A stretch of 64,000 nucleotides of DNA from positions 46,599 through 110,598 of the forward strand of contig JAFTXV010000001.1 in NCBI GenBank assembly GCA_017461505.1, read 5' to 3'. Made by a program: the position numbers and the translations under genes. This document shows positions 4,449 to 39,069 of this stretch, piece after piece. The DNA is from Paludibacteraceae bacterium. Lineage in GTDB: Bacteria; Bacteroidota; Bacteroidia; Bacteroidales; Paludibacteraceae. How positions within the stretch are numbered: position 1 is the stretch's first letter; each line of letters begins with the position of its first letter. The notes under the pieces are model-generated. The model saw nothing but the letters and a program-made list of their open reading frames with translations. It did not search any database and was not told the origin of the DNA.

Positions 4449-4565
4449 ATTTCTTTAAGTTGAAAGTTTATAGTTGAAAGTTTAAAGGCAAGGCGGCTAT
4501 GTCGCAGTACCTCGCCTATAACCTATAGCGTAGCGTCCTATAGCCTCAAAGAGGCGTCCTATAAC
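4449..4565. repeat. Intergenic palindromic repeat cluster
   Basis: This gap inside the steroid operon holds a doubled AGTTGAAAGTTTA motif and several short units of the type CCTATAGCGTAGCGTCCTATAG and CTCAAAGAGGCG. Style and base composition resemble the interspersed repeats found inside genes elsewhere in the window. Confidence 0.5.
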
Positions 4566-5854: not shown

Positions 5855-6643
5855 TTAATATATAAACGGAATGATTCGTTTGAGTTTCTTCTCGTCAAAT
5901 TCGTCTGCGAATTCTTGTTTGTAGCGATGATAGATAGAATTCGCACGTGGAACGAGGTTGCAGCATGAGAACCAGAAGAAGCTCAAGCCAGCCCAAGACC
6001 ATGTCAAGATAGCAAAGCCCAACCACTCGGTAATCTCGCCCAAATAGTTAGCACTAGTGACATACTTATACATGCCCTTCTTAGGTAAATAGTGATTGGT
6101 ATCACCTGGTTTGCGTAAATGGCGAATCACATGGTCAGAATGCATATTAATCGCCCAACCACAGATGAAGACAAGTACACCAAGAATAAAACGCCAATCT
6201 GTTAACCAGGAAGTAGCATATGGCGCAAACTGTGGAGCTAAATGGAAGAGCCAATAGCCTTGTATATAACCATTTACGAGATTCCATATAACTGAAAATG
6301 CCATGATAATGATAGGCATCTTGCTATTACCTTTCAGCAGGAATGGGAAAATAAATGAGCGTTGGAAATAGTGGAATTGGAATATCAAAAAGAAAATCAG
6401 ATATGGCAGTTGAAACTTGACTTCTGACATAGCCCAAAGGTACAACATGACCACAAAGACAGGCATCTCCATCAAGCACCACCCTACCTTATTATTGATT
6501 GCTGGTCCCCACTTCTCAGTACGCATCTTACCATAGCCCGCATCTACGAAATAGAGCGCAACAAACACCACTAATCCTACAAGGAAAAGTATAAAAAGGA
6601 AATTATGAAATGATTCCAAAGCAGTAGATATTTCCATAAGCAC
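5855..6643 (-). CDS. 3-oxo-5-alpha-steroid 4-dehydrogenase (5-alpha-reductase) family membrane protein
   Basis: This 262-residue multi-pass membrane protein leads the operon. The C-terminal block at about 161-211 (GWAINMHSD, LRKPGDTNHY, LPKKGMYKYV, ANYLGEITEWLGFA) is the hallmark of the SRD5A family. The family uses NADPH to reduce the C4-C5 double bond of 3-oxo-4-ene steroids to the 5-alpha configuration. About six to seven hydrophobic segments are visible. The start could be residue 1 or M3. The promoter at 6702-6733 fits transcription of this gene and the two downstream. Bacterial homologues are uncommon outside Bacteroidota and Proteobacteria, and the gene set points to bile-acid or steroid-hormone conversion. 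Confidence 0.88.
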   Translation of the reverse strand: MLMEISTALESFHNFLFILFLVGLVVFVALYFVDAGYGKMRTEKWGPAINNKVGWCLMEMPVFVVMLYLWAMSEVKFQLPYLIFFLIFQFHYFQRSFIFPFLLKGNSKMPIIIMAFSVIWNLVNGYIQGYWLFHLAPQFAPYATSWLTDWRFILGVLVFICGWAINMHSDHVIRHLRKPGDTNHYLPKKGMYKYVTSANYLGEITEWLGFAILTWSWAGLSFFWFSCCNLVPRANSIYHRYKQEFADEFDEKKLKRIIPFIY

Positions 6644-11971: not shown

Positions 11972-13096
11972 TTAATCTACTGGTACAAATTTCTCAACGT
12001 GATACTCACGCTTCACTTCTTTCACTTCCACTACTAATTGGTTAGCAGTCAGTTCGGTATTTTGTTTGCGTGTCTTCAGCACATCTATTGCGGTATAGAT
12101 TGCGTGCAGCATACTCGTCTCCGATGCCTCGTTCTTGCCAGCGATCGCATAGGCAGTTCCATGGTCTGGGGAGGTGCGAACTACACGCAAACCAGCCGTA
12201 AAGTTCACGCCGCTCATATCCAACGCTTTGAAGGGTGCCAAACCCTGATCATGATACATGGCCAACACCGCATCAAAATGGTTGTATTCACCTGCGCCAA
12301 AGAAGCCATCTGCTGAATAGGGGCCAAATGCCCAGATGCCGGCCTCTTGTGCTTGAGCAAGAGCAGGACGTATCACCTCTTGTTCCTCTTTGCCTATTAA
12401 ACCATTGTCGCCAGCATGTGGATTCAATGCCAACACAGCAATACGAGGTTTGCGACAAGAGAAATCCGTTTGCAAGGTTTTATTCAACACTTGCAATTTG
12501 GCCATGATATTCTCCACAGTCACCTTTTCGCTCACTTGTGCAATAGGGGTATGGTTGCATAGCAATGCAACGCGCATACGGTCGCTAAGCATCATCATTA
12601 GAGAGTCAGTAGATGGTAGATCGCTGCGCTGTAGATCGGCTGCGCCTGTAGATGGTAGGAACAGATGAGTGAGGTACTCGGTATGACCCGAATAGCGGAA
12701 TTGGTCGCATTGGATATTATCCTTATTGATTGGCGCTGTCACCAGGGCGTCCACCAATCCTTGTTGCAAGTCTGCTGTCGCGCGTTGCAAACTCTTCAAC
12801 GCAGCCTGTCCTGCCTCTGGAGTAGCGATACCCAACTGCAATGGCGTATCATCGCTATAACAGGTAATCATATTCAAACGACCATCTTTCGCTTGCTTAG
12901 GGGAGTCTATAATATTCCATTGGATATTATGCAACTCCTCACCGAGGGTCTTTGCATGCAGGCGTGCCACTTTGGCATTGCCGTATACGATAGGGCGACA
13001 TATCTCGCAGATATGAGGATTAATCAAACTCTTGAGGATAATCTCATACCCTACTCCATTGATATCACCCGCTGTAATTGCTATAATCGGTTTCAT
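11972..13096 (-). CDS. pdxA: 4-hydroxythreonine-4-phosphate dehydrogenase with a repeat-encoded insertion
   Basis: PdxA makes the aminoacetone phosphate precursor of pyridoxal phosphate. The 374-residue protein starts [19 protein letters not shown]. It keeps metal-site H138 (YSGHTEY), the histidine in NPHAGDNG and the later [10 protein letters not shown], plus the cofactor loop [11 protein letters not shown]. Residues about 147-165 ([17 protein letters not shown]) do not fit the family. They fall between conserved blocks and are encoded by an interspersed repeat at 12608-12658, and a nearly identical peptide occurs in the GH2 protein at 23075-25522. The insertion is in frame and likely a surface loop, so the enzyme is presumably functional. 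Confidence 0.93.
12608..12658. repeat. Family B interspersed repeat inside pdxA
   Basis: The plus strand carries TAGATGGTAGATCGCTGCGC followed by TGTAGATCGGCTGCGCCTG and TAGATGGTAG. The same unit occurs at 25191-25250 and, rearranged, at 39006-39067. It is translated in frame on the minus strand. Confidence 0.85.
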
Positions 13097-13121
13097 ATGC
13101 CTTGCCTTTAAACTCTAAACT

Positions 13122-13631
13122 CTAATCTATCTGCGTAACTTTATCGTATTGCAGTTTTTCGAAATCAAATGGCTTACGCTCTTCATTCTTGTAGCCTAGC
13201 GACATCACGCACAGCACAGTGAGGTCCTCTGGCAGATTAGTCAACTTGCGTACCAAGTCCTCAGCGCCTTCTCTTTGATACACATGGCACCAACATGCAC
13301 CCAGTCCTTGGTCTGCAGCAGCGAGCCAGATATTTTGCGCAGCAATAGCCGCATCGCATTGCCATGTGTCAATCACGCTCGTGTCCGCAGCTACTACGAT
13401 ACCCGCCATAGCGGTATCAAACATACCACTGCCATACGTACGGCAACCGGCTAACTGACGCAATATCTCTTGATTGGTTATCACTACAAAACGCCAAGGG
13501 TTCATACGTTTGCCCGCTGGCGACATCAGCGCACAACGAACTATATAATCCAATTTCTCTTGCTCTACAGGTTGGTCTGTATATTTCCTATACGAACGAC
13601 GTTCTTGGCATAAACTTTGAAAATCACGCAT
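13122..13631 (-). CDS. Nitroreductase-family FMN protein
   Basis: This 169-residue protein has the nitroreductase fold signature: RRSYRKYTDQPV near 11-22 for FMN phosphate binding, SPAGKRMNPWRFVVI near 37-51, and a C-terminal LGYKNEERKP. The length fits the short Bacteroidota nitroreductases, which act as dimers with flavin at the interface. The natural substrate is unknown. It is first in a leftward run with pdxA, alaS, guaD, the GtrA gene and the EamA gene, with gaps of 25 bases or less. Confidence 0.9.
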   Translation of the reverse strand: MRDFQSLCQERRSYRKYTDQPVEQEKLDYIVRCALMSPAGKRMNPWRFVVITNQEILRQLAGCRTYGSGMFDTAMAGIVVAADTSVIDTWQCDAAIAAQNIWLAAADQGLGACWCHVYQREGAEDLVRKLTNLPEDLTVLCVMSLGYKNEERKPFDFEKLQYDKVTQID

Positions 13632-13656
13632 AATTAGTCAATTTAACATTTGGGCG

Positions 13657-13688
13657 ACAAAGGTACTAATTTTTTCTCAAATACACAA
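13657..13688 (-). promoter_or_regulatory. Promoter of the nitroreductase-pdxA-alaS operon
   Basis: On the minus strand TTG (13688-13686), 20 bases, then TACCTTTGT (13665-13657), about 20 bases upstream of the nitroreductase start. Confidence 0.65.
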
Positions 13689-13794
13689 ATAAAATCGAAG
13701 ATTTTGGCAAAATCTGACAACAAAGTTTTAGCAGTCGTAAAGCATACAACCATTTTTCCAAGAAGGCAGCATTTTCTAGGAGAAGCTTGAAAAC

Positions 13795-13823
13795 AAAAAA
13801 GGCAGCTCGTAACGAGCTGCCTT
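13795..13823 (-). terminator. Terminator of the carboxyltransferase-serC operon
   Basis: The arms 13799-13809 and 13813-13823 form a perfect 11-bp stem with a three-base loop. On the minus strand the stem is followed by a run of T broken by one G. It lies 22 bases past the serC stop. Confidence 0.85.
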
Positions 13824-13844
13824 AAACTTAATCTTGTGTACTAT

Positions 13845-14936
13845 TTAAAGCACCGATTGTTCATACTCCTTCATGCAGTCTACAAGAGCTTGTACTCCTT
13901 CTAAAGTCATTGCATTATAGGTACTTGCGCGGAAGCCACCTACCAATCGGTGCCCCTTGATACCCACCATACCTTTGGCTGTAGCAAACTTGAAGAAGTC
14001 ATCTTGCAAATGTGCATACTCAGGCTTCAACACAAAGCAGATATTCATCATTGAGCGGTCCTCCGCCTTAGCTGTACCCTCAAAGATCTTGCTCTCATCA
14101 ATAGCCTTGTAGAGCAATTCTGCTTTAGCCACATTACGCTCCAATGCAGCCTCCAATCCACCATTAGCCTTCAACCAACGAAGAGTCAACATAGCGGTAT
14201 AGATTGGCAATACAGGAGGGGTATTGAACATACTGCCATTCTCTACGTGAGTGCGGTAATCCAACATTGTTGGGATATAGCGACTCACCTTACCAAGGAA
14301 CTCCTCTTTTACTATCACGAAAGTCACACCAGCAGGTGCCAAGTTCTTTTGTGCACCACCGTAGATGATGTCATATTTGCTTACATCAATTGGGCGAGAG
14401 AGGATATCCGAAGACATATCTGCAATCAAAGGCACATTGCCTTTTTTCTCGTAGATAGCTTGGAGTTTCTCGTCAGAGATCTCAGTACCATAGATAGTAT
14501 TATTAGTAGTAATATGCAAATAATCAGCATCTTGTGGCACTTCGAAGTCCATAGGGATATTATTGAAATTATCGGCAGCTGAGGTTGCCACCTCTACCAC
14601 TTCGCCAAAAGCTTTTGCCTCTTTGATGGCTTTCTTGGACCACACACCCGTATTGAGGTAAGCAGCTTTCTTCTCAAGGCAGTTGAATGGCACCATGCAG
14701 AATTGCAAACTAGCACCACCACCCACGAAAATCACGCGGTAGCCCTCTGGAATATTCAATAGTTCCTTCATCAAAGCTTCTGCCTCATCCACAACAGGTT
14801 GGAAATACTTAGCACGGTGAGAAATCTCAAGGATACTCAACCCTTCGCCTTGGAAATCAATAACAGCCTCTGCTGTTTGTTTAATCACTTCTGCTGGCAG
14901 GATACTTGGTCCCGCATTAAAATTGTATTTTTTCAT
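13845..14936 (-). CDS. serC: Phosphoserine aminotransferase
   Basis: This PLP-dependent class V aminotransferase converts 3-phosphohydroxypyruvate to phosphoserine, with a second role in pyridoxal phosphate synthesis. The 363-residue protein has the N-terminal [10 protein letters not shown] and the Schiff-base lysine K197 in [11 protein letters not shown]. The ending [13 protein letters not shown] matches the phosphate-binding region. It starts four bases after the carboxyltransferase gene and ends at a strong terminator. pdxA, in the same B6 pathway, lies in the next operon. Confidence 0.96.
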
Positions 14937-14940
14937 GGTT

Positions 14941-16857
14941 TTATTTATGATTTTTCGTCATTTTCCAATTACTTTTTGTGCCTTCAATGATCTCGCTGTC
15001 AGCTTTCTTTACTGCCTCTTTGATTGCAGCTTTTACTTTCTTAGCAGCACCTTTGACATCGGTAATAAATTCCTCTACGAGGTCGGCTTTCTCTACCCAG
15101 CAGAGTGCATCTCCCTTCACAGCGGTAGCACCTTGTTCCTTCTCAATAGAAACGACACGGCAATGCTCAAACGCACGAATTGGCTCGATGCCATGAGGTG
15201 TTTGCAGGTAGCATACTACATCGCCTTGTTTGTAGAAAGTACCCAAAGCAGGTGCTTTGCTGTCCTCGTTGAAGTCCAACTCCCACATTACTTTACCAGA
15301 GAGAGTTGCCTCCAATGGCTCAGCATTAGGATGAAGGATGGCACGTTTGTCAGCCGCGGTTAGCACCTTCACGGGTTGACCACTAGCTGCCGCTTTCTCT
15401 ATGCGCTCAAAGAGATCCTTATTGAATTGCTCTTTGGCTTGACCTGACTTATACTCGCGATATTGTTTCTCGTGCATAGCGAACTCAAAGAGTTCCTCAT
15501 CATCTTGACCGCGATCCCAACCATTCTTCTCCATCTCTGCGATGAATTGTGGGAGGACATCAGGATAGAGGGCTTGTGGATCATCGGTATAGAACTCCAT
15601 ATTCTTCTCTTTGGCGAGTTCGATAATCTCTGGTGCCAATGTACCAGGGAGTTTACCTGACTTACCAAGAATCATGCCCCACATAGCAGGGTCCATACGA
15701 GTGAATGGTTTCTCACCCATAGACTTGCTATAGAGGTTCATCAGGGCAGCGTTCTTCACATATTGTGAGAATGGAGTTACGAGACATGGTGTACCGAGCA
15801 TAGGCCAGATACGTTGTACCTCGTCGAAGAGCTCTACGAGGAGTTCATCTTCGCTGAGGGCCGCTTGTCCGCGCTTCACAAGATTGGCGTTGATAGCCGC
15901 ATGCATACCTTTCAAGTCTGCCATGAGCGAACCCATCATACCGCCAGGAAGGCCGCAACCTACCAGCAGAGAAGTCATCTTGGAGTTACGAGGGTCAATC
16001 CAATAGCCGAGGAAGTCGTCAATAAACTCTTGGGTTAATGAGCGTGCTTCCATATATGCTTTCATATTGATATCCTTCACTAGGAAGCCCGCATCCTTGA
16101 GCATGGATTGGATGGTGATCACGTCTGGGTGCACCATACCCCAACTGAGTGGCTCCATGGCTACGTCCAACACGTCACCACCTGCTTTTGCTACCTCTAG
16201 CATACTAGCTACAGAGAAACCAGGTCCCGAGTGACCGTGGTATTGGATGATGATATCAGGATGTTTCTCTTTGATAGCAGCAACAATAGTACCTAGCATC
16301 GCTGGACGACCAATACCTGCCATATCCTTCAGACAGATTTCTTGTGCGCCATTGGCGATAAGTTCCTCTGCAAGGTTGATATAATATTCAGCATTGTGTA
16401 CCTCAGAATAGGTGATACACATGGTAGCTTGGGCGGTCATGCCCGCCTCTTTTGCCCATTTGATAGAAGGGATAATATTGCGAGGGTCGTTCAAGCCGCA
16501 GAAGATACGGGTGATATCTACACCTTGTGCGTGCTTTACCTTATACATCAACTTGCGCACATCAGCAGGCACAGGGTTCATACGCAGTGCGTTGAGACCA
16601 CGGTCGAGCATGTGGGTTTTGATACCTGCCTCGTTGAAGGGCTTGGTAAAGGTGCGTACTGCTATATTGGGATTCTCGCCGTAGAGTAGATTCACTTGTT
16701 CGCTAGCACCGCCATTGGTCTCAACGCGGTCGAAACAGCCCATGTCAATAATCACAGGCGCAATCTTAGCCAACTGATCTTTGCGTGGTACATACTTACC
16801 ACTACTCTGCCACATGTCGCGATAGACAAGGGAGAATTGAATTTCTTTTTTTGCCAT
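14941..16857 (-). CDS. Pyruvate/oxaloacetate carboxyltransferase subunit (PycB/OadA-like) lacking the usual biotin motif
   Basis: The 638-residue protein has the DRE-TIM-barrel carboxyltransferase domain of PycB/OadA. Metal-site and catalytic residues are visible as K177 (CLKDMAG) and H207/H209 (QYHGHSGPG). The following conserved domain reaches about residue 480. The C-terminal domain at about 515-590 has the biotinyl fold pattern, but where AMKM is expected it reads [10 protein letters not shown] (551-560), so no standard biotinylation lysine is present. A long K/E-rich tail follows. Either a separate biotin carrier is used or the domain is structural. It would exchange carboxyl groups between a biotin carrier and pyruvate or oxaloacetate. 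Confidence 0.85.
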
Positions 16858-16928
16858 AATGGTTCTTCGTTTGTATGGTATTTTTAATTAATTTAATTCT
16901 TGATTAAGCGTTGCCATTGAACGCGACT

Positions 16929-16960
16929 GCAAAGTTACGCTTTATTTCGCACATACGCAA
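16929..16960 (-). promoter_or_regulatory. Promoter of the carboxyltransferase-serC operon
   Basis: On the minus strand TTG (16960-16958), 20 bases, then TAACTTTGC (16937-16929), giving a leader of about 70 bases. Confidence 0.7.
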
Positions 16961-16997
16961 GCAAAAGACGAAAAATAATAAGAAAATTTCAAAATCG

Positions 16998-17029
16998 TTG
17001 TATATATGGAATATTTTTTGTAATTTTGC
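16998..17029 (+). promoter_or_regulatory. Promoter of the AI-2E-family permease operon
   Basis: TTG (16998-17000), 20 bases, then TAATTTTGC (17021-17029). It is back to back with the leftward promoter at 16929-16960. Confidence 0.7.
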
Positions 17030-17079
17030 ACCAAATTTGGCTCATTATAGCCATAATGACCTCTCATTTGCATTGAAAT

Positions 17080-18231
17080 ATGGCAAAGCAAGAAGTAAAC
17101 GAGAATCAAACCATGAAGAATCGTCAGACGATTGTTCGTAGTGTTGTTACTGTGGTAGTACTAGTAGCATTATACCTACTAATACGCCGCTTAAGCGGAG
17201 TATTACTACCTTTCCTTATTAGTTTCGTAATAGCCTATATATTGGCTCCTATCGTCAATTTCTTTCAGCATAAATGCCGATTGAAGAATCGCGTATTATC
17301 GGTGATTGTCACCATATTATTGGTATTGGGCGTACTGACAGGTCTTGTTGCAGCATTGGTGCCTGCCATCAGTAAGCAGGCTACATCGCTCTCCAATAGT
17401 GTCAAGACTTATGTTGCTCAATGGAATGGTAATGAATACTTCTCTGCTGAAACCAACCAACGCATTGAGGAGTTGATTAGAAGTCTTGATATCAAAGCGC
17501 TCTTGCAATCCGATGAAGTGCAACAAGGGTTAAGCAAGGTAGCAAACTTCCTAGGAGATGGACTATTGGCAATTGGCAATAGCGTACTAAGTTTGGCAAT
17601 CGTATTTGTGTGCATCATGTATATCATTTTCCTTCTCATTGATTATGAGAAGATTACACTGAATTGGCACAAGTATATCCCTGCACGTTTTAGCGAAACG
17701 ATGCAAATGCTGCTTCAAGATTTAGATCGCAACATGAATGCCTATTTCCGTGGTCAAGCACTCATTGCAGCCATCAACGGGTTATTGTTTGCCATTGGTT
17801 TTCAAATCATTGGTTTACCAATGGGCATTGGTTTGGGCATTATGATTGGCATACTCAATCTGGTGCCTTATATGCAGATATTAGGTGCTTTTCCTGCCGT
17901 GCTATTAGGATTGATTCAAGCCGCAGAGACAGGTCGTCCATTTTGGGTGATATTGCTCTGTATAGCCGCTGTATTTGCCATCGTACAAATTGTTGAGAAT
18001 ATGGTACTTACGCCTACAATTATGGGTGAAGTGACAGGTATGGGACCTGCCTGGATATTGCTCAGTTTATCCATCTGGGGTTCGCTACTTGGTTTTGTGG
18101 GAATGATTATCGCGTTGCCACTCACCACACTGCTCATATCCTACTACAAGCGGTTTGTACTGAACCTATCTGATGACATGACACGCACCATATCCACACG
18201 AAGAAAATGGTGGTGGAATAAGAAAAAATAA
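17080..18231 (+). CDS. AI-2E family transporter (PF01594-type permease)
   Basis: This 383-residue membrane protein has a pair of N-terminal helices (residues about 18-60), a soluble middle stretch and a C-terminal group of helices with PMGIGLGIMIGILNLVPYMQILG, the conserved core of the family. Members include the TqsA/PerM type and Na+/H+ antiporter-like proteins; the substrate cannot be told. The start could be 17080 or the ATG at 17113. The stop overlaps the start of the next gene (TAATG), suggesting coupled translation. Confidence 0.88.
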   Translation: MAKQEVNENQTMKNRQTIVRSVVTVVVLVALYLLIRRLSGVLLPFLISFVIAYILAPIVNFFQHKCRLKNRVLSVIVTILLVLGVLTGLVAALVPAISKQATSLSNSVKTYVAQWNGNEYFSAETNQRIEELIRSLDIKALLQSDEVQQGLSKVANFLGDGLLAIGNSVLSLAIVFVCIMYIIFLLIDYEKITLNWHKYIPARFSETMQMLLQDLDRNMNAYFRGQALIAAINGLLFAIGFQIIGLPMGIGLGIMIGILNLVPYMQILGAFPAVLLGLIQAAETGRPFWVILLCIAAVFAIVQIVENMVLTPTIMGEVTGMGPAWILLSLSIWGSLLGFVGMIIALPLTTLLISYYKRFVLNLSDDMTRTISTRRKWWWNKKK

Positions 18232-19154
18232 TGGATATGAAGATAGCTTTCACCACATCATTACCTGCAGAAGGATTTGTTCGATTGGAGCAACATACAC
18301 TCTACGCACCATTGGAAGAGGCGGATGTTTTAGTCAGCACATTCGACAAGCCAGTGATGCGGGAGATGATTATGTCAGCCCCTCATCTACAGTTGGTTAC
18401 AAACTTTGGTGTCGGCTTTAATAATATCGACCTTGAGGCCTGTCGCGAACGCGGTATTCGTGTCACCAATACTCCCCAACCCGTGATTGAGCCTACTGCC
18501 GAACTAGCATTTGCTCTCATGCACGATGTGGCAAGGCGCACGGCAGAGTTCGACCGCAAGTTGCGACAAGGCAAAGCCGAGGCATTTGGGGTGATGAACA
18601 ACCTTAGTCATTCGCTCTATGGCAAGACCTTAGGTATTATTGGAATGGGACGTATCGGACAAGCACTAGCCCGCAGAGCAGTGGCATCGGGAATGAGCAT
18701 CATTTATCATAATCGCCGTCCGTTAGGCGATGAGGATATAAGGCGATTAGGCTATGAGGCGAGATATATGAGCAAAGAGGAATTGTTGGAAACGGCTGAT
18801 TTTGTGAGTCTTAACCTACCCTATACACCAGAGGTGAAGCACTTGATAGGAGAACGTGAACTGAAGATGATGAAGAATAGTGCATACCTTATCAACACCG
18901 CGCGCGGCGCGCACGTGGACGAAGAGGCACTAGTGGAAGCCCTCAAAGGAGGCGTGATTGCAGGCGCTGCGATGGATGTATATGAACACGAGCCACAGAT
19001 TCATCCCGAGCTGCTCACGTTAGACAATGTAGTTCTCTCGCCTCATACGGGTACAGGCACGTGGGAAGGTCGCATCGCCATGTGCGAGAATGTTTGTGAC
19101 AATATTCTTGCGTGGGAGAGAAAGGACATTGATAGTATGGATATCGTCCTTTGA
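18231..19154 (+). CDS. D-2-hydroxyacid dehydrogenase (glyoxylate/hydroxypyruvate reductase-like)
   Basis: The 307-residue enzyme has the Rossmann motif GIIGMGRIGQA at 135-145 and the catalytic set R225 (INTAR), E254 (YEHEP) and H272 (LSPHTG). The spacing is that of the D-isomer-specific dehydrogenases. The sequence LVTNFGVGFNNID resembles glyoxylate and hydroxypyruvate reductases. Residues about 164-178 are encoded by a GGCGATGAG/TTAGGCGAT-type repeat in the variable linker after the cofactor-specificity strand. N161-R-R may favour NADP. Its start overlaps the permease stop by one base. Confidence 0.88.
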   Translation: MDMKIAFTTSLPAEGFVRLEQHTLYAPLEEADVLVSTFDKPVMREMIMSAPHLQLVTNFGVGFNNIDLEACRERGIRVTNTPQPVIEPTAELAFALMHDVARRTAEFDRKLRQGKAEAFGVMNNLSHSLYGKTLGIIGMGRIGQALARRAVASGMSIIYHNRRPLGDEDIRRLGYEARYMSKEELLETADFVSLNLPYTPEVKHLIGERELKMMKNSAYLINTARGAHVDEEALVEALKGGVIAGAAMDVYEHEPQIHPELLTLDNVVLSPHTGTGTWEGRIAMCENVCDNILAWERKDIDSMDIVL

Positions 19155-19164
19155 TTATACAGCG

Positions 19165-19208
19165 AGGTTCCAATCAGGTTCCAATCAGGTTCCAATCAGG
19201 TTCCAATG
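19165..19208. repeat. Four tandem copies of an 11-bp unit
   Basis: AGGTTCCAATC occurs four times head to tail, the last ending in G. It is followed by three AAGGGGC units and AATTAAGAATT repeats up to about 19288. Together they fill the gap between the dehydrogenase gene and pepT. Confidence 0.9.
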
Positions 19209-19291
19209 GAAATAAGGGGCGAGTAAGGGGCAACTAAGGGGCATATAATGGGGAATTAAGAATTAAGAATTTTGAATTAAGAATTAAAGAT

Positions 19292-20503
19292 ATGAATATT
19301 ACAGAGAGATTTTTGAAGTATGTGAGTTTTTGCACAACTTCGGATGAAGAGACCAACATGACGCCCTCAACTCCTGGGCAGATGGAGTTTGCTAAGTACC
19401 TTGCAGCTGAGCTCAAAGAGATTGGTATGCAAGAGGTTACATTGGATGAGAATGGTTATGTGATGGCCACCCTACCCGCTAATGTAGAAGGCAAACCAAC
19501 TATCGGTTTTATTGCTCACATGGATACCGCTCCTGATGCCAGCGGCAAAAATGTGAAAGCACGTATCGTAGAAAACTACGACGGACAAGATATTGTACTC
19601 AATGCAGAGAAGAATATCGTATTTGAAGTAGCGAAATACCCAGAGATCTTGGATTACAAAGGTCAAGATATTATCGTGACGGATGGAACAACACTACTCG
19701 GAGCAGATGATAAAGCGGGCTTGGCAGAGATTGTAACTGCGTGTGAATATCTGATTCAACACCCTGAGATTCAGCACGGTAAGATTCGCGTAGGCTTTAC
19801 TCCAGATGAGGAGATCGGTCAAGGGGCAGACCACTTCGATGTAGAGAAGTTCGGTTGCGACTTTGCCTATACCATGGACGGTGGTGCTGTGGGCGAATTA
19901 GAATACGAAAACTTCAACGCGGCAGGTTGCAAGGTGAAAGTGCATGGTGTGAATGTGCACCCTGGTTATGGCTACCACAAGATGATCAACTCGATGCGTA
20001 TCGCTAACCATTTTGCGACGATGTTACCTCGTTGGGAAACCCCAGAGCATACACAAGGCTACGAAGGCTTCTACCATTTGATTGCTATGAATGGTAGTGT
20101 AGAAGAGACCACTTTGCAATATATCATCCGTGACCACGACCGCGCACGCTTTGAGAGCCGTAAGCGCGAGATAGAGCACTTGGCGCGCAAGATTAACCAA
20201 GAGTATGGCGAAGGTACTGTAGAAGTAGAGATACGTGACCAATACTATAATATGCGCGAGAAAGTAGAACCTGTAATGCATATCGTCACCCTCGTGGAGG
20301 AAGCGATGAAAGAGGTGGGTGTGACACCTAAGGTGCAACCTATCCGTGGTGGTACAGATGGTGCACGCCTCTCCTTCGAGGGACTACCCTGCCCTAATAT
20401 CTTCGCTGGTGGTGTGAACTTCCACAGCCGATTTGAATATCTACCTATTCCATCCATGGAGAAGGCGATGGAAGTGATCTTGCAAATCGTCGCTAAAGCG
20501 TAA
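19292..20503 (+). CDS. pepT: Peptidase T (tripeptide aminopeptidase)
   Basis: This 403-residue M20-family zinc aminopeptidase releases the N-terminal residue of tripeptides in the cytoplasm. H76-x-D78 (AHMDTAPD), D139/D140 (LLGADDKAG) and E173/E174 (TPDEEIG) are the zinc and catalytic residues. The C-terminal [19 protein letters not shown] and [10 protein letters not shown] complete the family pattern. The length matches PepT. It is flanked by tandem repeats on both sides. Confidence 0.95.
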
Positions 20504-20519
20504 CAATTTTCGTAAATAG

Positions 20520-20698
20520 CGGCAGAGCCGCGAAAGTGGCTAAAGCGAAAATGGTCTTCGACGAAAGTGGTACCTTCGGTACGTAAATAACGCAAAGCCA
20601 TTAACGTGAAACCACTTTCGTGAGCGCAGCGAACCATCTTCGTGAGCGAAGCGAACCACCTTCGTGAGCGAAGCGAACCACCTTCGTGAGCGAAGCGA
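20520..20698. repeat. 22-bp tandem repeat array with hairpin units
   Basis: Four consecutive 22-bp copies begin at 20611, 20633, 20655 and 20677. Each contains CTTCGTGAGCGAAG, which can fold as a five-bp hairpin; the last two copies are identical. More degenerate pieces of the same type lie from about 20520 to 20610. There are no variable spacers, so it is not a CRISPR. Confidence 0.9.
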
Positions 20699-20734
20699 AC
20701 CAATAACGTAAACAAAGTGAACTAAAAGAATTAT

Positions 20735-21802
20735 ATGAAAACTACTCCATTTACAGACATCCATATCGCTCTAGGAGCGAAGATGGCAGATTTTGCGGGC
20801 TTTAATATGCCTATTCAATACCCTACGGGTATCAACCAAGAACACATGATTGTGCGTGAAGGCGTAGGTGTGTTTGATGTGAGCCATATGGGCGAGTTTT
20901 GGGTGAAAGGTGAGAAGGCACTCGACTTCTTGCAATACATCACTACCAACGATGTGAGCAAATTGGAAGCTGGCAAAGCACAATATACTTGTTTCCCTAA
21001 CGGCAAAGGTGGTATTGTAGATGACTTGATTATTTACAAATACTCTACCACAAAGTATCTGCTTGTAGTGAATGCAGGCAATATAGACAAGGACTGGGCA
21101 TGGGTGAATGAGCAAAACACCTTTGGTGTACAACTGGAGAATGCAAGCGACCGCTACGGTCAATTGGCTGTCCAAGGACCCAAAGCCACAGAGATGCTGC
21201 AATTACTCACCGATGCAGATTTGAGCGCGATTCCCTATTACGCTTTCCGCGAATGGTCATTCGCAGGCGTGCAAGGCGTAATTCTAAGTAATACAGGTTA
21301 TACCGGCGCTGGCGGATTTGAATTGTATTTCCCTAAAGAGTACAGCCAACAAATCTGGGATGCTCTCTTCGAAGTAGGTAAAGACTTTGGTTTGGCTCCT
21401 ATCGGACTCGGCGCACGCGATAGCTTGCGTTTGGAGAAATGGTATTGCCTCTATGGTCATGATATTGATGACACCACCTCTCCATTGGAAGCAGGACTTG
21501 GCTGGATTACCAAGTTTGATGCTAAAGACTTCATTGACAAAGAGTTCTTGCTCAAGCAAAAAGCGGAAGGCGTACAACGTAAGTTGGTACACTTTGAATG
21601 CCAAGAGCGTGCTATCCCACGCTGTGGTTATGAGATCTGCGATGCAGAGGGCACAGTGATTGGTAATGTGACAAGTGGTATCATGCTACCAACCACCAAG
21701 ATTGGTGTAGGTATGGGTTACGTGAAGACTGCTTTTGCCAAGAAAGAGACCATCATCTATATCAAGATTCGTGAGAAGTTGATTCCAGCGAAGATTGTAT
21801 AA
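20735..21802 (+). CDS. gcvT: Aminomethyltransferase (glycine cleavage system T protein)
   Basis: The T protein transfers the methylene group from aminomethyl-lipoyl-H protein to tetrahydrofolate, releasing ammonia. The 355-residue protein begins [20 protein letters not shown] and has FDVSHMGEF near 44-52 and [11 protein letters not shown] near 189-199, all typical. The C-terminal barrel ends with a lysine-rich IPAKIV. gcvH and gcvP are not in the window. Folate-dependent relatives such as YgfZ are less likely, given the complete T-protein pattern. Confidence 0.93.
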
Positions 21803-21840
21803 GAAAGCATATCGTCTTTCTATGTGAGAAAGACATTATT

Positions 21841-21883
21841 AAATAGCACCCCTTGCGCTACCTTTGCGCAAGGGGTGCTATTT
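21841..21883. terminator. Bidirectional terminator between gcvT and galK
   Basis: The arms 21841-21858 and 21866-21883 form a perfect 18-bp stem with a seven-base loop. A/T-rich outer pairs give T runs on either strand. It separates convergent genes. Confidence 0.8.
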
Positions 21884-21901
21884 AGATATTGACTGAATGT
21901 C

Positions 21902-23065
21902 TTACTCTACCCTATGAGCACCATCGCCAATTTCTGCGATATAGAAATCAGCCTTCAAACCGGTTTTCTCAGTATATTCTCTACCTACTTGCTCAATGAA
22001 GGTAGGAATAGCTTCCTCGCGCACTAATGATACGGTGCAACCACCAAAGCCACCACCTGTCATACGGCTACCGATTACGCCTTCCACTTTCCATGCTGCT
22101 TCCGCAAGGGCATCCAATTGAGGACCTGTCACCTCATAATCATCGCGCAGAGAAATATGACTTTGATTCATCAATACGCCAAACTTCTCAATATCTCCTT
22201 TTTGCAGCGCCTCTACGGCATCCACTGTACGTTGTACTTCACCAACTACGTGACGAGCACGGCGGTGTGCTACTTCATCGGTAATAGCATCTTTGACTTG
22301 CTCAAATTCAGATTGTGAGAGTTCTGCTAGATATTGGATTGGGCGTACCGCATTAATTTGCTCTACTGCTAATTGACATTGACGAACACGATCATTGAAA
22401 GATCCCGAATCAAGTTTGTGAGGCGAGTGAGTATTGGTGACTACGACCTTAATACCATCTAATTTAACTGGCACTAAGTCATACTCCAATGTGTCGCAAT
22501 TTAAATAGATGGCGTGATCTGCTTTGCCATGCGCAGAAGCAAATTGATCCATGATACCGCACATTACACCAGCAAACTCATGTTCGGATGCACGGCCAAT
22601 CTTGGCTAATTCAGTAAGTGGGTATCCTGTGCCAAGCAAATCGTTTAGTGCATAAGCGGTTACAACCTCCATTGCAGCACTACTGCTCAAACCCGCACCT
22701 GCAGGTACATTACCCCAGAAGAGGATATCGTATCCTTGAGTAATGGCTATGCCACGTTTGATAAATTGAGCAAAGACTCCTAATGGATAATTTGCCCATG
22801 CTTTGTCAGGAAGTGGAGCAGTCAGTTCGTCCAAACCTAAGGTATATACTGCCTCCATATTCAAGGAACGGAAATTGATTTTTTGCTCGTTGTTAGGAGA
22901 GAGCAAGAGATAGGTACCAAAGCTGAGTGCGCAAGGGAACACAAAACCACCGTTGTAGTCGGTATGCTCACCTATTAAGTTAACACGACCAGGGGAAAAG
23001 AATATGTCGGTTGCTGGTTTTTGATAAACTGCTTCGTAAGCAGATTTTAATTCTTCGAGTTTCAT
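21902..23065 (-). CDS. galK: Galactokinase
   Basis: This GHMP-family kinase phosphorylates galactose at C1 in the Leloir pathway. The 387-residue protein has the galactokinase signature GRVNLIGEHTDYNGG at 26-40 and the ATP loop PAGAGLSSSAAM at 121-132. CGIMDQFAS holds the catalytic aspartate, and GGGFGGCTVSL lies near the C-terminus. It is the last gene after the GH53 and GH2 genes, 9 bases from the GH2 gene, which ties it to use of galactose released from galactan. Confidence 0.96.
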   Translation of the reverse strand: MKLEELKSAYEAVYQKPATDIFFSPGRVNLIGEHTDYNGGFVFPCALSFGTYLLLSPNNEQKINFRSLNMEAVYTLGLDELTAPLPDKAWANYPLGVFAQFIKRGIAITQGYDILFWGNVPAGAGLSSSAAMEVVTAYALNDLLGTGYPLTELAKIGRASEHEFAGVMCGIMDQFASAHGKADHAIYLNCDTLEYDLVPVKLDGIKVVVTNTHSPHKLDSGSFNDRVRQCQLAVEQINAVRPIQYLAELSQSEFEQVKDAITDEVAHRRARHVVGEVQRTVDAVEALQKGDIEKFGVLMNQSHISLRDDYEVTGPQLDALAEAAWKVEGVIGSRMTGGGFGGCTVSLVREEAIPTFIEQVGREYTEKTGLKADFYIAEIGDGAHRVE

Positions 23066-23074
23066 GGTATGTAT

Positions 23075-25522
23075 TTATTGAATGGTTATTATTGCTTTTT
23101 TTAGTCCTTTCGCAGTAGCGGTTAGCGTACAATTTCCTTCTACAATAGCAGTCAATTCACCTGCAAAGGCATGATGCTGAGGCAAGTGGAAGAGGTCTAG
23201 ATTAGCCGCATCTCCATTGGCAGCAGCTCTGAATGTACCCTCGCCTTTTGTGGTAAATTGGATCAAGTTATCGGCATGCGGACAAAGATTACCACTCGCA
23301 TCGCAGACACGTACTCGCACAAAGTGAAGAGGCTTGCCGTCTGTTGCTGGTATGTCTTCTAAGTACATCTCAATATGATGAGGTTTTCCTGCAGTCTGGC
23401 GTACAGCTTCGCCATAGGGAGTAACTACTTTCAGTTCACCTGCCTCGTATGGGATATTATCCCAGATAAGGCGATAGCGGCGTTGCAAGCCCAATGGATC
23501 ACCTGCTTGGATAGCGGCTTCCGACTCTTCGCGGGTGAGTTTGCGCACCTTACCCATACTCTTTCCGTTGACAAAGAGTTCGCCTTCAGCGGCATCGGTG
23601 TATGCCATAACTGGGAGAGTATCACCCTCGTTCCAATTCCAATGAGGAAGGAGATGGACAGTATGTACATCCTTGCGCCACATAGAGCGATAGAGGTAGT
23701 AGCGATCTTTAGGAATACCCGCAAGGTCAATGATACCGAAGTAGGAAGAGTGACTTGGCCAAGCATCCGTATCCCATGGAGAGGGCTCGCCTAGATAATC
23801 AAAACCAGTCCAAACAAACTGTCCAATAGTCCAAGCATAGTCATCCATATTTCGGAAATCATCATCCGGAAGATTACTCCAAGGGCAATATTGCAGGTCA
23901 TAACTAGAGCATTGATTGGTTTGGCTATTGCCACCCGGATGATTCATATTAGTGATATGATCGGTATCATCGGGCAATGCAGGTAATAGATATACACCAC
24001 GAGAAGAAACGGTAGAGGCAGTCTCCGAGCCAAGAATTAGGTGTTGAGGTGTACGTTGGTAGGATTCCAAATAGCGATGAGGACGGTAATTGAGTCCAAC
24101 TATTTGCAGAACACTAGCAAAACCGTTCTCCAAAACGCATGTCACTTGATCCATACCCGCCGTACATGGACGTGTTCCATCCTCACGAACGCATATATCT
24201 TGCAACATTTTTGCAGTTTTATATCCCTGTGGGTCACATTGCGTAGGTACTTCGTTGCCAATAGACCACATGATGATACTTGGGTTGTTGCGGAAATGAT
24301 GTAGCATATTCACCATATCGCGCTCTGCCCATTCATTGAAGAAGCGACTATAACCATTTTTACATTTTGCCCAATCCCACTCATCGAATGGTTCACACAT
24401 CACCATAAGTCCGAGTTCATCGCAAAGTTCGATTTGTTCGGGCGCAGGCATATTGTGGGAAGTACGAATAGCATCGCATCCCATCTCCTTGAGTATCAAT
24501 AACTGACGGCGTAGTGCATCTTTGTTAATTGCCGAGCCTAGAGGACCAAGATCATGGTGCAAGCAAACACCTTGAATCTTACGCACTTTGCCATTCAAGA
24601 GGAAGCCAACATTAGGAACGATTTGTACGCTACGCACGCCAAAAGTGGTTTCTACCTCTTCTTGATATACATCGTCTGCATATACACTTGTGCGTGCAAT
24701 ATATAAATTAGGCGTCTCAGGCGACCAGAGAGCAGGATTGTGGAGGGTGATGTTTTGCTCAAGAGGTAGATTATGCTTTACATCATACGTACTCACCAAC
24801 GAATCTACCACCTCGCCTGTAGATTTGAGTATCAACGTCGTATGCAAACGAATTTGCTTATTGAGTGCATTCTCTACACGTGTCTTGATGTTCACGCTGG
24901 CTAATTGCTCTGTTACATAAGGCGTTGTGATATGTGTACCCCAGATAGGTACATATACCGATGGCTTTTGAATAAGATGCACATTGCGATATAAACCTGC
25001 ACCAGGATACCAACGGCTACTCTGCTCGCGGTTTTGAAGGCGAACAGCAATTTCGTTGTCGCCAGCGTGGAGAGCAGATGTAATGTCACAGTGAAAAGCA
25101 TTGTAGCCATATGGCCAGAAGCATACTTTCTGTCCATTGATAAAGACCTCTGCCTCGCTCATGGCTCCATCGAAGAGGAGGAAATAATTGGTAGATGTAG
25201 ATGGTAGATCGCTTCGCTGTAGATCGGCGCAAGCGCCTGTAGTTGGTAGAGTGACATTGGTTTTATACCATGCGCTACCCATGTATGGAAGTCCACCCGT
25301 GCGACCAGTCTTGATAGATGGGAAGGTCTCCCCATTTTGCCAAACGGTAACGTTCTGCAAGTCGTTGGCGCGGTCGAATGGTCCGTAGATCGCCCAATCG
25401 TGAGGGATAGTTACTTGCTGCCATGATTTTGCATTAGATGCTGGCATTTCATGATTATTCTGCTCCATTGAGAATTGCCACGAAGTGAGCAGAGAAGTGA
25501 TGGCTAAAATCAGGAGAGTCAT
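23075..25522 (-). CDS. Glycoside hydrolase family 2 beta-galactosidase with a repeat-encoded insertion
   Basis: The 815-residue protein has the GH2 order: sugar-binding jelly roll (to about 185), Ig-like domain, TIM barrel, then a DUF4982-like and further C-terminal Ig-like domain. E424 (WSIGNEVP) is the acid/base and E500 (LGSETAS) the nucleophile. A short hydrophobic N-terminus suggests export to the periplasm. Residues about 92-109 ([18 protein letters not shown]) interrupt the jelly roll at a normally short loop. They are encoded by the interspersed repeat at 25191-25250 and nearly match the insertion in PdxA. The setting beside GH53 and galK points to cleavage of beta-1,4-galacto-oligosaccharides. 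Confidence 0.9.
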   Translation of the reverse strand: MTLLILAITSLLTSWQFSMEQNNHEMPASNAKSWQQVTIPHDWAIYGPFDRANDLQNVTVWQNGETFPSIKTGRTGGLPYMGSAWYKTNVTLPTTGACADLQRSDLPSTSTNYFLLFDGAMSEAEVFINGQKVCFWPYGYNAFHCDITSALHAGDNEIAVRLQNREQSSRWYPGAGLYRNVHLIQKPSVYVPIWGTHITTPYVTEQLASVNIKTRVENALNKQIRLHTTLILKSTGEVVDSLVSTYDVKHNLPLEQNITLHNPALWSPETPNLYIARTSVYADDVYQEEVETTFGVRSVQIVPNVGFLLNGKVRKIQGVCLHHDLGPLGSAINKDALRRQLLILKEMGCDAIRTSHNMPAPEQIELCDELGLMVMCEPFDEWDWAKCKNGYSRFFNEWAERDMVNMLHHFRNNPSIIMWSIGNEVPTQCDPQGYKTAKMLQDICVREDGTRPCTAGMDQVTCVLENGFASVLQIVGLNYRPHRYLESYQRTPQHLILGSETASTVSSRGVYLLPALPDDTDHITNMNHPGGNSQTNQCSSYDLQYCPWSNLPDDDFRNMDDYAWTIGQFVWTGFDYLGEPSPWDTDAWPSHSSYFGIIDLAGIPKDRYYLYRSMWRKDVHTVHLLPHWNWNEGDTLPVMAYTDAAEGELFVNGKSMGKVRKLTREESEAAIQAGDPLGLQRRYRLIWDNIPYEAGELKVVTPYGEAVRQTAGKPHHIEMYLEDIPATDGKPLHFVRVRVCDASGNLCPHADNLIQFTTKGEGTFRAAANGDAANLDLFHLPQHHAFAGELTAIVEGNCTLTATAKGLKKAIITIQ
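25191..25250. repeat. Family B interspersed repeat inside the GH2 gene
   Basis: The plus strand carries TAGATGGTAGATCGCTTCGC, TGTAGATCGGCGCAAGCGCC and TGTAGTTGGTAG. It is the same unit as in pdxA and is read in the same frame on the minus strand. Confidence 0.85.
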
Positions 25523-36824: not shown

Positions 36825-39008
36825 ATGACACGACATGAACAACTGATTGAAGCATTACAACATCATTTTGGATTTGATTCCTTCAAGGGTAATCAAGAGG
36901 CAATCATTAACAACCTTATGGATGGCAAAGATACCTTCGTATTGATGCCAACGGGTGGAGGTAAGAGTTTGTGTTACCAATTGCCATCATTGTTGATGGA
37001 CGGCGTGGCTATTGTAATTTCTCCGCTGATTGCGTTGATGAAGAATCAAGTGGACGCCATGCGCAACTACTCGGAAGAGGATGGCGTGGCCCATTTCTTG
37101 AACTCATCGCTATCCCGCCCAGAAATTCATGCAGTGAAAGCAGATGTGCTGAGTGGCAAGACGAAATTGCTGTACGTAGCTCCAGAGTCGCTGAACAAGG
37201 ATGAGAACGTGGACTTTTTGAAGGATGTGAAGATCTCGTTCTATGCGGTGGATGAGGCGCACTGTATCTCCGAGTGGGGACATGATTTCCGCCCTGAATA
37301 CAGACGTATTCACCCTATCGTGGAGCGAATAGGCAAAGCACCTATCATTGCGCTGACCGCTACTGCGACCCCAAAAGTGCAAAGCGATATTCAGAAGAAC
37401 TTAGATATGATGGATGCGACGGTGTTTAAATCGTCGTTCAACCGTTCGAATCTATATTACGAAGTACGCCAGAAGACCGATGATGTGGACAAAGATTTGG
37501 TTCGCTATATCAAAGGAATGGACGGCAAATCGGGTATTGTATATTGTTTGAGCCGTAAGACAGTAGAAGATTTGGCAGAGACCTTACGCGTGAACAACAT
37601 CCCTGCGCTGGCGTATCATGCTGGTATGGATGCAGCCACTCGTAGTGCGAATCAAGATGCGTTCTTGATGGAGCAAGTGCAAGTGATCGTGGCGACGATT
37701 GCGTTTGGTATGGGTATTGACAAGCCCGATGTGCGCTTTGTGGTACACTACGATATTCCAAAATCGTTAGAGGGCTACTACCAAGAGACAGGTCGTGCGG
37801 GTCGTGACGGCGGTGAAGGACAATGTATTTGTTTCTACTCGCCTAAAGATATTGAGCGTTTGCGCAAATTCCAGCAAGGCAAGCCCGTTTCGGAGCAAGA
37901 GATTAGTAATCAGTTGCTCTTTGAGACACAGTCGTATGCGGAGAGTTCGATTTGTCGCAGAAAATTGCTATTGCACTATTTTGGCGAGGAATACAAGACT
38001 GATAATTGTGGCAGCTGCGACAATTGCCGCAAGACATACAAGATGGTGGAAGCGACCGAATTGCTGGGCTTGATACTGGAAACTATCCACCAATTGAACG
38101 AGAAATTCCGTGCTGAGCATATCGTAGATATCATTCGCGGTAAAGAGTCGGCAGGAGTGTTGGCATATAAGCATACGGAATTGGAGAATTTCGGTTGTGC
38201 TGAAGATGAGAACGAAGCCAACTTGCATGCCATCATTCGTCAGGCCATGGTGAGCGGTTATCTGAAGAAAGATATAGAGTCATACGGCGACTTGAAGTTG
38301 ACCTCTGCAGGTAAGAAATTTATGAAACGCCCTACTCGCTTTGAGGTGCCCATAGAGGTGCATAATGAGGATGAAGACGGGGATTTGGGTGCAGGTATGG
38401 CTACGTGCGCTGCTGCAGATGATGTATTGTTCTCTATTCTAAAAGACCTGCGCAAGAAGTTGAGCAAGCGCTTGAACGTGCCACCTTTTGTAATCTTCCA
38501 AGATGGCAGTCTGGAGGCAATGGCTACCTCCTATCCTATCACTTTGGAGGAGATGCAGAATATCCCTGGTGTGGGTGTGGGAAAAGCTAAACGTTATGGC
38601 GATGAGTTTATCCGCGTAATCAAAGAATACGTGGAAGAAAATGATGTGATTCGCCCAGAAGACTTGCGTGTGCGCACTGTGGCAAAGAACTCTGCGAGAA
38701 AGATTGCGATTATTCAAGCCATTGACCGCCGCGTGGCATTGGATGATTTGGCAGAGCGTTTGGGAATGTCGATGGAAGAGATGCTGGAGGAGATTGAGGC
38801 CATTGTGTATTCAGGTACTAAACTGAATATCAAGTACTTTATCGAAGAAGTAGTGGATCCAGATGAGGAGGCAGACATTTACTATTATTTCCGTCACGCA
38901 GAGAATGACAGCATCAAACTAGCAATGCAAGAACTAGGCGAAGACGACTACGACGAGATAAATGTGCGATTGGTGAGAATTAAGTTCCATAGTGAGCTGG
39001 GGAATTAG
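36825..39008 (+). CDS. recQ: ATP-dependent DNA helicase RecQ
   Basis: This 3'-5' helicase acts in recombination and repair. The 727-residue protein has Walker A PTGGGKS at 42-48, DEAH at 143-146, and helicase motifs V-VI (ATIAFGMGIDKPDVRFV, YYQETGRAGRDG). The RQC zinc cysteines appear in CRRKLLLHYF and CGSCDNC. An HRDC domain lies near 530-620. A C-terminal extension of about 100 residues beyond HRDC (helix-turn-helix-like) is normal for the Bacteroidales form. Confidence 0.96.
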   Translation: MTRHEQLIEALQHHFGFDSFKGNQEAIINNLMDGKDTFVLMPTGGGKSLCYQLPSLLMDGVAIVISPLIALMKNQVDAMRNYSEEDGVAHFLNSSLSRPEIHAVKADVLSGKTKLLYVAPESLNKDENVDFLKDVKISFYAVDEAHCISEWGHDFRPEYRRIHPIVERIGKAPIIALTATATPKVQSDIQKNLDMMDATVFKSSFNRSNLYYEVRQKTDDVDKDLVRYIKGMDGKSGIVYCLSRKTVEDLAETLRVNNIPALAYHAGMDAATRSANQDAFLMEQVQVIVATIAFGMGIDKPDVRFVVHYDIPKSLEGYYQETGRAGRDGGEGQCICFYSPKDIERLRKFQQGKPVSEQEISNQLLFETQSYAESSICRRKLLLHYFGEEYKTDNCGSCDNCRKTYKMVEATELLGLILETIHQLNEKFRAEHIVDIIRGKESAGVLAYKHTELENFGCAEDENEANLHAIIRQAMVSGYLKKDIESYGDLKLTSAGKKFMKRPTRFEVPIEVHNEDEDGDLGAGMATCAAADDVLFSILKDLRKKLSKRLNVPPFVIFQDGSLEAMATSYPITLEEMQNIPGVGVGKAKRYGDEFIRVIKEYVEENDVIRPEDLRVRTVAKNSARKIAIIQAIDRRVALDDLAERLGMSMEEMLEEIEAIVYSGTKLNIKYFIEEVVDPDEEADIYYYFRHAENDSIKLAMQELGEDDYDEINVRLVRIKFHSELGN

Positions 39009-39067
39009 ATCGCTACGCTGTAGATGGTAGATCGCTGCGCTATAGATGGTAGATTGATACGCTGTAG
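39006..39067. repeat. Family B repeat units between recQ and rimO
   Basis: Three imperfect copies of TAGATCGCTGCGCTGTAGATGG lie between the recQ stop and the rimO start. This is the intergenic form of the repeat found in frame inside pdxA and the GH2 gene. Confidence 0.85.
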
Positions 39068-39069
39068 AT

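Follow-up and report, generated by a model that had tools for sequence, protein, structure and literature searches.

The DNA examined here is a 64-kb stretch (below, the window means the whole of it) of the draft genome of a gut bacterium of the family Paludibacteraceae (G000; 1.74 Mb in 22 contigs, 82% complete), in which near-identical peptides of 17 and 18 residues occur in PdxA and in a GH2 beta-galactosidase-like protein. A preliminary description had traced both peptides to one interspersed DNA repeat read in the same frame, and had pointed to related units between recQ and rimO and, in altered form, in an ABC-F gene. Sequence and coordinates read directly bear this out, and the PdxA and GH2 repeats are read in identical codon phases. 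We name the strands by their linkers: C is the strand that reads CTACA...GATC, and T is its complement. The copies and their genes are as follows.

11972..13096, minus strand: pdxA, host gene of 374 residues (Pfam PdxA, 2.7e-103)
12608..12658, minus strand: in-frame repeat in pdxA, 17-residue peptide, C orientation in sense; modules GGCGCAGCC (12638-12646) and GCGCAGC (12623-12629) between CTAC/GATC linkers
23075..25522, minus strand: GH2 beta-galactosidase-like host gene of 815 residues (Pfam GH2 domains)
about 25191..25250, minus strand: in-frame repeat in the GH2 gene, 18-residue peptide, C orientation in sense; modules GGCGCTTGCGCC (25226-25237) and GCGAAGC (25211-25217)
36825-39008 and 39070-40416: recQ and rimO, the genes flanking the intercistronic array
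39006..39069, plus strand: intercistronic array in the recQ-rimO gap, T orientation; modules GCGTAGC, GCGCAGC and a degenerate third
44656..46521 (open reading frame, ORF, listed from 44626), plus strand: ABC-F host gene (Pfam)
about 44945..44983, plus strand: altered copy of the repeat within the ABC-F gene, T orientation, peptide ENASLQDGASAYS

The in-frame stop codons of the ABC-F copy are altered (TGTAG to TACAG), and the reading frame therefore stays open. When the repeats of the window were catalogued, the CTACA repeat recurred as two families, D5 and D6. The idea of a single 48-bp unit had to be given up, as the repeat is a variable string of modules of the form CTACA-[short palindrome]-GATC, in which the linker is constant and often doubled as GATCTACCATCTACA, the palindromes vary and covary, and the number of modules joined into an array differs from copy to copy. 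We analysed the window together with 25 further stretches of the own genome, about 239 kb in all (the own loci), 24 of the 25 stretches having been chosen via a single linker pattern that is blind to orientation, and L107 and the window otherwise. A palindrome-filtered scan of these loci returned 177 modules; their inserts are of 81 kinds, of which a few are plainly spurious. Without any palindrome selection, 111 of 126 segments running from CTACA to GA[TA]CTA close with two or more terminal Watson-Crick pairs, where letter shuffles give an expectation of 11, and 35 close with four or more, where they give 0.5. In other genomes, 52 named loci gave 141 of 157 segments with two or more pairs (15 expected), and the stretches taken from relatives gave 10 of 16.

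The stems are mostly 2-6 bp long and vary in sequence inside one genome, and they fall into recognizable classes. The form GC-GNA-GC has the compensated forms GT-GNA-AC and AC-GNA-GT; further classes are GGC-GNA-GCC, the pair GCCC-NNN-GGGC and GGGC-NNN-GCCC, and the pair GGCGC-NNN-GCGCC and GCCAC-NNN-GTGGC. GNA loops closed by C-G are unusually stable DNA minihairpins. A separate class consists of 15-mers with two tandem G.A pairs within the stem, such as GCGAGC-NNN-GCGAGC. Of 32 distinct 15-mers, 29 start with R-Y-G-A; in our tabulation of these, the matching 3' GA is present in 29/29, although the filter did not require GA there, and pair 2-14 covaries (CG 16, TA 8, TG 3, CA 2).

The preliminary description had asked for a genome-wide search, and further copies are indeed many. 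With up to three mismatches, TAGATCGCTNCGCTGTAGAT is found at 70 places in the own genome, against one for the reversed control, and the general form CTACAGN{4,30}GATCTA yields 148 modules, against four. Few of the 61 genomes of the genus that were searched (G numbers below) carry many modules: G000 has 148 matches to the general form, G118 60, G197 41 and G183 22, followed by G201 with 11 (reversed control 3) and G171 with 9 (control 1), while the remaining genomes have 0-5, as do their reversed controls. In a collection of 84,980 genomes an exact 20-mer occurs in 52 stretches, where about two would be expected by chance; 39 of these are titled Paludibacteraceae, 12 other Bacteroidota and 1 Lentisphaera. 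Of 150 genomes sampled from the family, 13 belong to the genus, and the 3 in which the 20-mer was found with up to one mismatch are all among these 13. Near-identical arrays occur on two contigs, L036 and L082, one binned under Tidjanibacter and the other under Paludibacteraceae, so that binning errors may account for some of the matches beyond the family. Separately, an array mostly of GGCRYAGCC hairpins with a 24-bp period lies at the end of G000 contig C7 (46560-46799) and at the start of contig C9 (12-127), and therefore it probably broke the assembly there.

The repeat had been likened to ORF-invading palindromic elements, and its behaviour within genes agrees with this. In the own loci, where most arrays are intergenic, 14 arrays lie within ORFs of unrelated proteins, 12 of them C in sense, one T and one mixed, the last being probably an artefact (L100, a compound array directly before a VapE-like domain). 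Elsewhere there are 34 (29 C in sense, 5 T), which gives C in 41 of 48 overall, orthologous host genes being counted more than once in these tallies. The hosts in the own genome include LpxB, AroA, a U32 peptidase, a glycogen synthase, an aldehyde dehydrogenase, and NlpC/P60, RNase H and radical SAM proteins; in LpxB the insert occupies residues 174-194, and residue 172 is the last of the best Pfam stretch. Simulated C arrays are stop-free in every frame; of the simulated T arrays, 21% remain open with two modules, 12% with three and 6% with four. Tabulation of 47 of the 48 arrays gave 43 with a placeable CTACA-like linker, and codon phase 2 is used in just three of them, a rarity which suggests a filter on the peptide. 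In another genome, a DHH-family protein (L031, 3722-5113) contains about 116 residues encoded in frame by 18 modules; similar loci have 17 residues (L048) and 14 residues (L032) at the array.

The proposal that the peptide is absent from relatives holds for PdxA and does not hold in full for GH2. A PdxA match was found in 59 of the 61 genomes, and among 30 aligned loci the peptide is unique to the own locus and absent from the other 29. The insertion is not a clean one, because 51 bp stand in place of the loop of about 12 bp of close relatives, a net gain of 39 bp. Among 20 aligned GH2 loci, the insert is present in the own genome and in G118, identical between them at the DNA level, and G197 has a degenerate form; in G201 and G183 (L147 and L148) the loop instead contains an unrelated palindromic repeat (CCCCTTCAGGGG, CCCCTTCAGGGGGAGTTAGAGGGGG), and the other 15 have neither. 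The ABC-F insert is common only to the own genome and G201 among 20 aligned loci, and G171, G183 and G197/G118 have other repeat-like sequence in that loop. PdxA and GH2 can be aligned along most of their sequence to relatives of solved structure, the peptides standing opposite gaps, and in all three proteins compared with relatives the alignments place the inserts in what are probably loops. The preliminary description had said that it would be contradicted by homologues from distant genera with the same peptide at the same site, or by a lack of further copies; we found no aligned homologue with the PdxA peptide, and copies are plentiful.

Between genes the arrays follow the direction of transcription. 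In 32 co-directional gap arrays (15 own, 17 from other genomes, some of these loci being orthologues or copies of each other, so that the gap counts are not independent), the order in gene direction is TC in 19, TCTC in one, T only in eight and C only in four, and in no case does C come first and T last. Near stops we counted 67 T and 7 C modules in the own loci and 40 T and 6 C elsewhere; near starts, 37 C and 4 T in the own loci and 44 C and 6 T elsewhere. The hairpin classes are divided likewise, perfect palindromes lying mostly beside stops and tandem-G.A hairpins mostly beside starts. Outside the CTACA gaps, tandem-G.A hairpins were seen nine times in sense, all of them within 3 gaps out of 162, and a single time in antisense; the expectation from shuffles is 0.1. 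Near-identical compounds occur in neighbouring gaps. Two other fillers (L231, and L081 at 6174-6306) consist of self-complementary TTTTAA-type arms around one hairpin; they are unrelated in sequence and alike in shape.

Such polarity, together with the class split, is what would be expected if the filler were a cis-acting operon RNA, folding into a single rod whose base brings the stop of the first gene near the start of the second and keeps the leader free, so that translation would remain coupled across a long insertion and the in-gene copies would be strays. Sixteen fillers from six species that differ in sequence were folded and compared with dinucleotide shuffles; z was below -2.1 in 15 of them (the exception, the G118 pdxA gap, scored -1.65) and 13 form one exterior helix, in keeping with this proposal, although these sequences were hand-picked. 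Over all gaps the picture is less favourable, as the median energy z of -1.58 for 29 CTACA gaps is no better than the -2.06 for 137 other gaps. Many of the latter have terminators and score equally well, and the full set of gaps therefore does not support stability as the special mark of the fillers; the RNA role is kept as a rival because stability alone does not single out the fillers. A single exterior helix is found in 18/29 CTACA gaps and in 48/137 others, and a -7 TAnnTTTG box in 1/29 and 46/137, respectively; these two figures speak for the RNA proposal, and the latter led us to reject the view that the gaps bear promoters. For the 16 fillers the length outside the helix was not shorter than in shuffled sequence, and a shortened stop-to-start distance was discarded as an explanation. 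It also counts against the proposal that pairing alone does not require T before C and that some sister species manage without a filler. Overall, we consider the proposal possible, if rather doubtful. Two further candidates were set aside: intrinsic terminators, since in the gaps that were read the hairpins are without a subsequent T run and the leader after them is A-rich, and known structured RNAs, since no Rfam 15 family matched the repeat (five loci searched at the gathering score gave two tRNAs only, and one filler gave no match up to E=5).

Comparison of orthologous gaps shows that the same operon gap can be empty, differently filled or refilled across sister species; when empty, these gaps measure 4-13 nucleotides (nt), which fits the RNA proposal, and they may instead hold other repeats. 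Before the gene which we take to be ychF (gene names at the compared gaps are assigned from the sequence), G183 has 5 nt from stop to ATG, G201 and G171 have other repeats, and G000, G118 and G197 have a CTACA compound; in the gap after it, G183 has 11 nt, G201 and G171 an octamer-type filler, and the same three genomes again a CTACA compound. At L105 the first gap is 181 nt in the own genome and 13 nt in G201, G118 and G183 (unmeasurable in G197), and the second is 178 nt in the own genome, 185 in G197, 161 in G118 and 4 in both G201 and G183; G171 is without a match there, and in G191 both gaps are filled (132 and 174 nt), the 7-mer hairpins being the same and the linker a different one, GACC.../...GGTC. 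At L102 the compound is present in the own genome and in G197; in G201 its hairpins sit on a third linker, in G118 there is an unrelated filler of 107 nt, in G191 the gap is 19 nt, and G183 and G171 gave only weak matches. Between recQ and rimO, G118 has about 19 nt, G191 has 22 nt and G142 has 0 nt, and the gap after pdxA, 1-14 nt in G000, G201 and G197, contains a filler of 203 nt in G118.

Linkers differ between these genomes. Among 7-mers flanked by ACA and GNYC in the DNA fetched, GATC follows in 51 of 61 from the own genome (a figure biased by the choice of loci) and in 6 of 6 from G118, GGTC in 5 of 5 from G191, and GATC in 5 of 8 from G197, which also has other forms including the CTAACA type of G201; G201 itself gave one each of GATC, GGTC and GCTC, and 8 of the 13 genomes sampled had none. 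A tentative picture, which we find doubtful as a whole, is that species of one gut genus share an operon-spacer system with conserved hairpins (GC-GNA-GC, GT-GNA-AC, AC-GNA-GT and tandem-G.A stems) and a conserved polarity from stop to start, the species differing in their predominant linker (GATCTACA in the own genome, GGTCRGACA in G191, GATCTAACA/GGTCTAA in G201). Linkers would then evolve in concert across the copies of one genome, and the filler, an mRNA rod between stop and start, could enter tight operon gaps or disappear from them, and would spill into protein loops. The dialects are not exclusive, because G197 carries both GATCTACA and CTAACA forms, and this slightly lowers the odds.

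How the modules came to so many sites may be considered under three explanations. We favour, with a probability of roughly 0.55, a genome-wide family of small modular palindromic repeats that is copied without a transposase of the REP-associated tyrosine transposase (RAYT) type, REP standing for repetitive extragenic palindrome, and that is retained by selection. Modules would multiply as DNA, the likeliest routes being template switching and non-reciprocal recombination among copies able to form hairpins, and selection would then decide where they remain. In tight operon gaps this would be the bipartite filler, with perfect palindromes beside the upstream stop and tandem-G.A hairpins beside the downstream start, where it may act as RNA; in genes it would be mostly the strand that is stop-free in every frame, and mostly two of the three phases, giving a hydrophilic peptide. 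The PdxA and GH2 peptides would in that case be by-products of repeat landings, presumably neutral for their hosts.

The second explanation, in which RAYT (Y1) transposases move the repeat as GTAG-tagged palindromes of the REP or bacterial interspersed mosaic element (BIME) type travelling as single-stranded DNA, is suggested by the GTAG that borders T-strand modules, the tag of GTAG REPs. Hairpins with C-G closing pairs and GNA loops would suit single-stranded DNA. Y1_Tnp has some match in 22 of the 61 genomes of the genus. The available part of PMC3733652 places GTAG REPs likewise downstream of genes and sometimes within them, and that of PMC6006769 describes a RAYT subclass, 2.6, that is mostly from Bacteroidetes and accompanied by atypical structures. 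However, Y1 transposase (PF01797) was not found in G000, G118 (98% complete), G183, G197 and G201, five of the six repeat carriers, in a search that gave matches in its positive control, Escherichia coli, and for this reason we rejected RAYT mobilization as the leading explanation. The short stems, which vary in sequence within one genome, and the G191 linker, which is without a CTAC/GTAG motif, also disagree with it, and we regard it as unlikely.

The third explanation is pure mutation, with slippage and quasi-palindrome template switching making and homogenizing arrays in place, with neither selection nor spread from one locus to another. Tandem arrays reaching 18 units, the spread from 116 down to 14-17 residues between the DHH-family locus and its two counterparts, and the presence of several unrelated low-complexity families in the window are what it would predict. 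It is nevertheless very unlikely in our view, since one linker and hairpin set is shared by many unlinked loci, neighbouring gaps contain near-identical compounds and polarity is strong, and therefore copying between loci and a filter are needed.

Several points weigh against copying without a RAYT-type transposase followed by selection. A transposase of the own genome could have been missed, because the draft is 82% complete, and G171, the sixth carrier, has one Y1 match below the cut-off. The copying route itself is one that we infer, and no convincing target-site duplication was seen, a short ACCAAT flanking the GH2 insert. The set of own loci favours CTACA-type linkers, because 24 of the 25 stretches were picked by one linker pattern, genes were called simply as the longest ORFs from ATG, and the counts of arrays and loci overstate independence, because copies and loci are related by descent and G118, G197 and the own genome share several sites. 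Lastly, the strong polarity in gaps is hard to obtain by neutral spread alone and points to a function.

Compared with described systems, the repeat works like REPs and like Rickettsia palindromic elements (RPEs) and, as tested, belongs to neither. According to the available parts of PMC3733652 and PMC6006769, REPs have stems of 5-13 bp, form sequence families and occur mostly as opposed dimers, and GTAG REPs have the tetranucleotide 0-2 nt 5' of the hairpin (PMC6006769). As far as those texts go, our repeat resembles GTAG and CGTC REPs as a many-copy short palindrome with GTAG beside the hairpin, with sites downstream of ORFs and between co-directional ORFs and with in-frame intragenic copies; the stop-proximal T modules (67 own, 40 elsewhere) show the REP preference for sites just downstream of ORFs. 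It differs from REPs in that several unrelated hairpins share one linker in head-to-tail arrays, with 81 distinct inserts among 177 modules, stems of mostly 2-6 bp and no RAYT found (PF01797 was absent from the hits in the five carriers named above, of which G000 is 82% complete). ATC separates GTAG from the hairpin, and the array ends indicate that within the T-strand unit GTAG belongs on the 3' side. CTACA arrays also precede starts, with a different hairpin class, and these start-proximal C modules (37 own, 44 elsewhere) are not a feature of REPs as the same texts present them. REP doublets (REPINs) and BIMEs are, in the accessible portion of PMC6006769, likewise extragenic mosaics of palindromes and short linkers; unlike BIMEs, which are two inverted REP copies there, the fillers have arms with different hairpin classes in an order fixed relative to transcription.

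The likeness to the Rickettsia elements, which the preliminary description had drawn, stands for function and not for family. RPEs, in the available part of PMC2229807, insert in frame into unrelated and often conserved genes, apparently tolerated, and have intergenic copies too; in-frame insertion in unrelated genes with absence from relatives is what we see in PdxA, GH2 and ABC-F. Their anatomy is different, as RPEs are units of 105-146 bp with 12-bp terminal inverted repeats, whereas the CTACA family is a mosaic of short modules in variable number, with interchangeable hairpins and a polarity to transcription. The earlier remark that no such family was known in Bacteroidota needs care, since CGTC-tagged repeats are reported from Bacteroidetes in PMC3733652, in the accessible text of which the phylum list for GTAG repeats is without Bacteroidetes; the extract of a survey of stem-loop families (PMC2267715) leaves Bacteroides and Porphyromonas unmentioned. 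Our literature search on such repeats brought up only PMC3733652 and PMC6006769 for Bacteroidetes and nothing on the topic for Paludibacteraceae. Overall, the first interpretation of the repeat is thus partly supported.

As a rule, small palindromic repeats are defined by a single sequence, and GTAG REPs also by a single kind of transposase. The small dispersed repeats of cyanobacteria are a further parallel, being very small and lying in genes and gaps and also within other repeats. In the CTACA family it is a linker that stays constant while the hairpins can be exchanged, Y1 was not found in five of six carriers, and the orientation follows that of transcription with few exceptions. The variants of one gap among sister species make two old questions testable, namely by what route repeats that lack a transposase spread and whether intergenic repeats are selected for their effect on mRNA, and the in-gene copies show repeats as a source of new loops in conserved enzymes.

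The window contains further repeats, two of which have related hairpins on other linkers.

20620..20700, plus strand: four hairpins of the tandem-GA class, GTGAGCGNAGCGAAC, with CAYCTTC as their linker and a period of 22
4524..4562, minus strand: modules with GTCC/TATA as a third linker; hairpins GCGTAGC and GCCTCAAAGAGGC

The former occupy the start-side half of a 231-nt gap between ORFs 19292-20503 and 20735-21802; the latter start at most 10 nt from a stop at 4566, and the orthologous gap of G118 has more units. A second in-gene repeat, built on the octamer AGGCGATR, lies at 39397-39449 and 40291-40343 in rimO and at 46225-46277 in the ABC-F gene, where it encodes alike peptides (NEAMRRQGDEAMGE in RimO and NDEAMRRKGDEAKGE in ABC-F), and similar octamers occupy operon gaps in G171 and G201. 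Finally, adjoining minisatellites of 11-bp AATCACTAACT units and 7-bp TTAGAGG units lie at 35379-35563, upstream of a plus-strand ORF.

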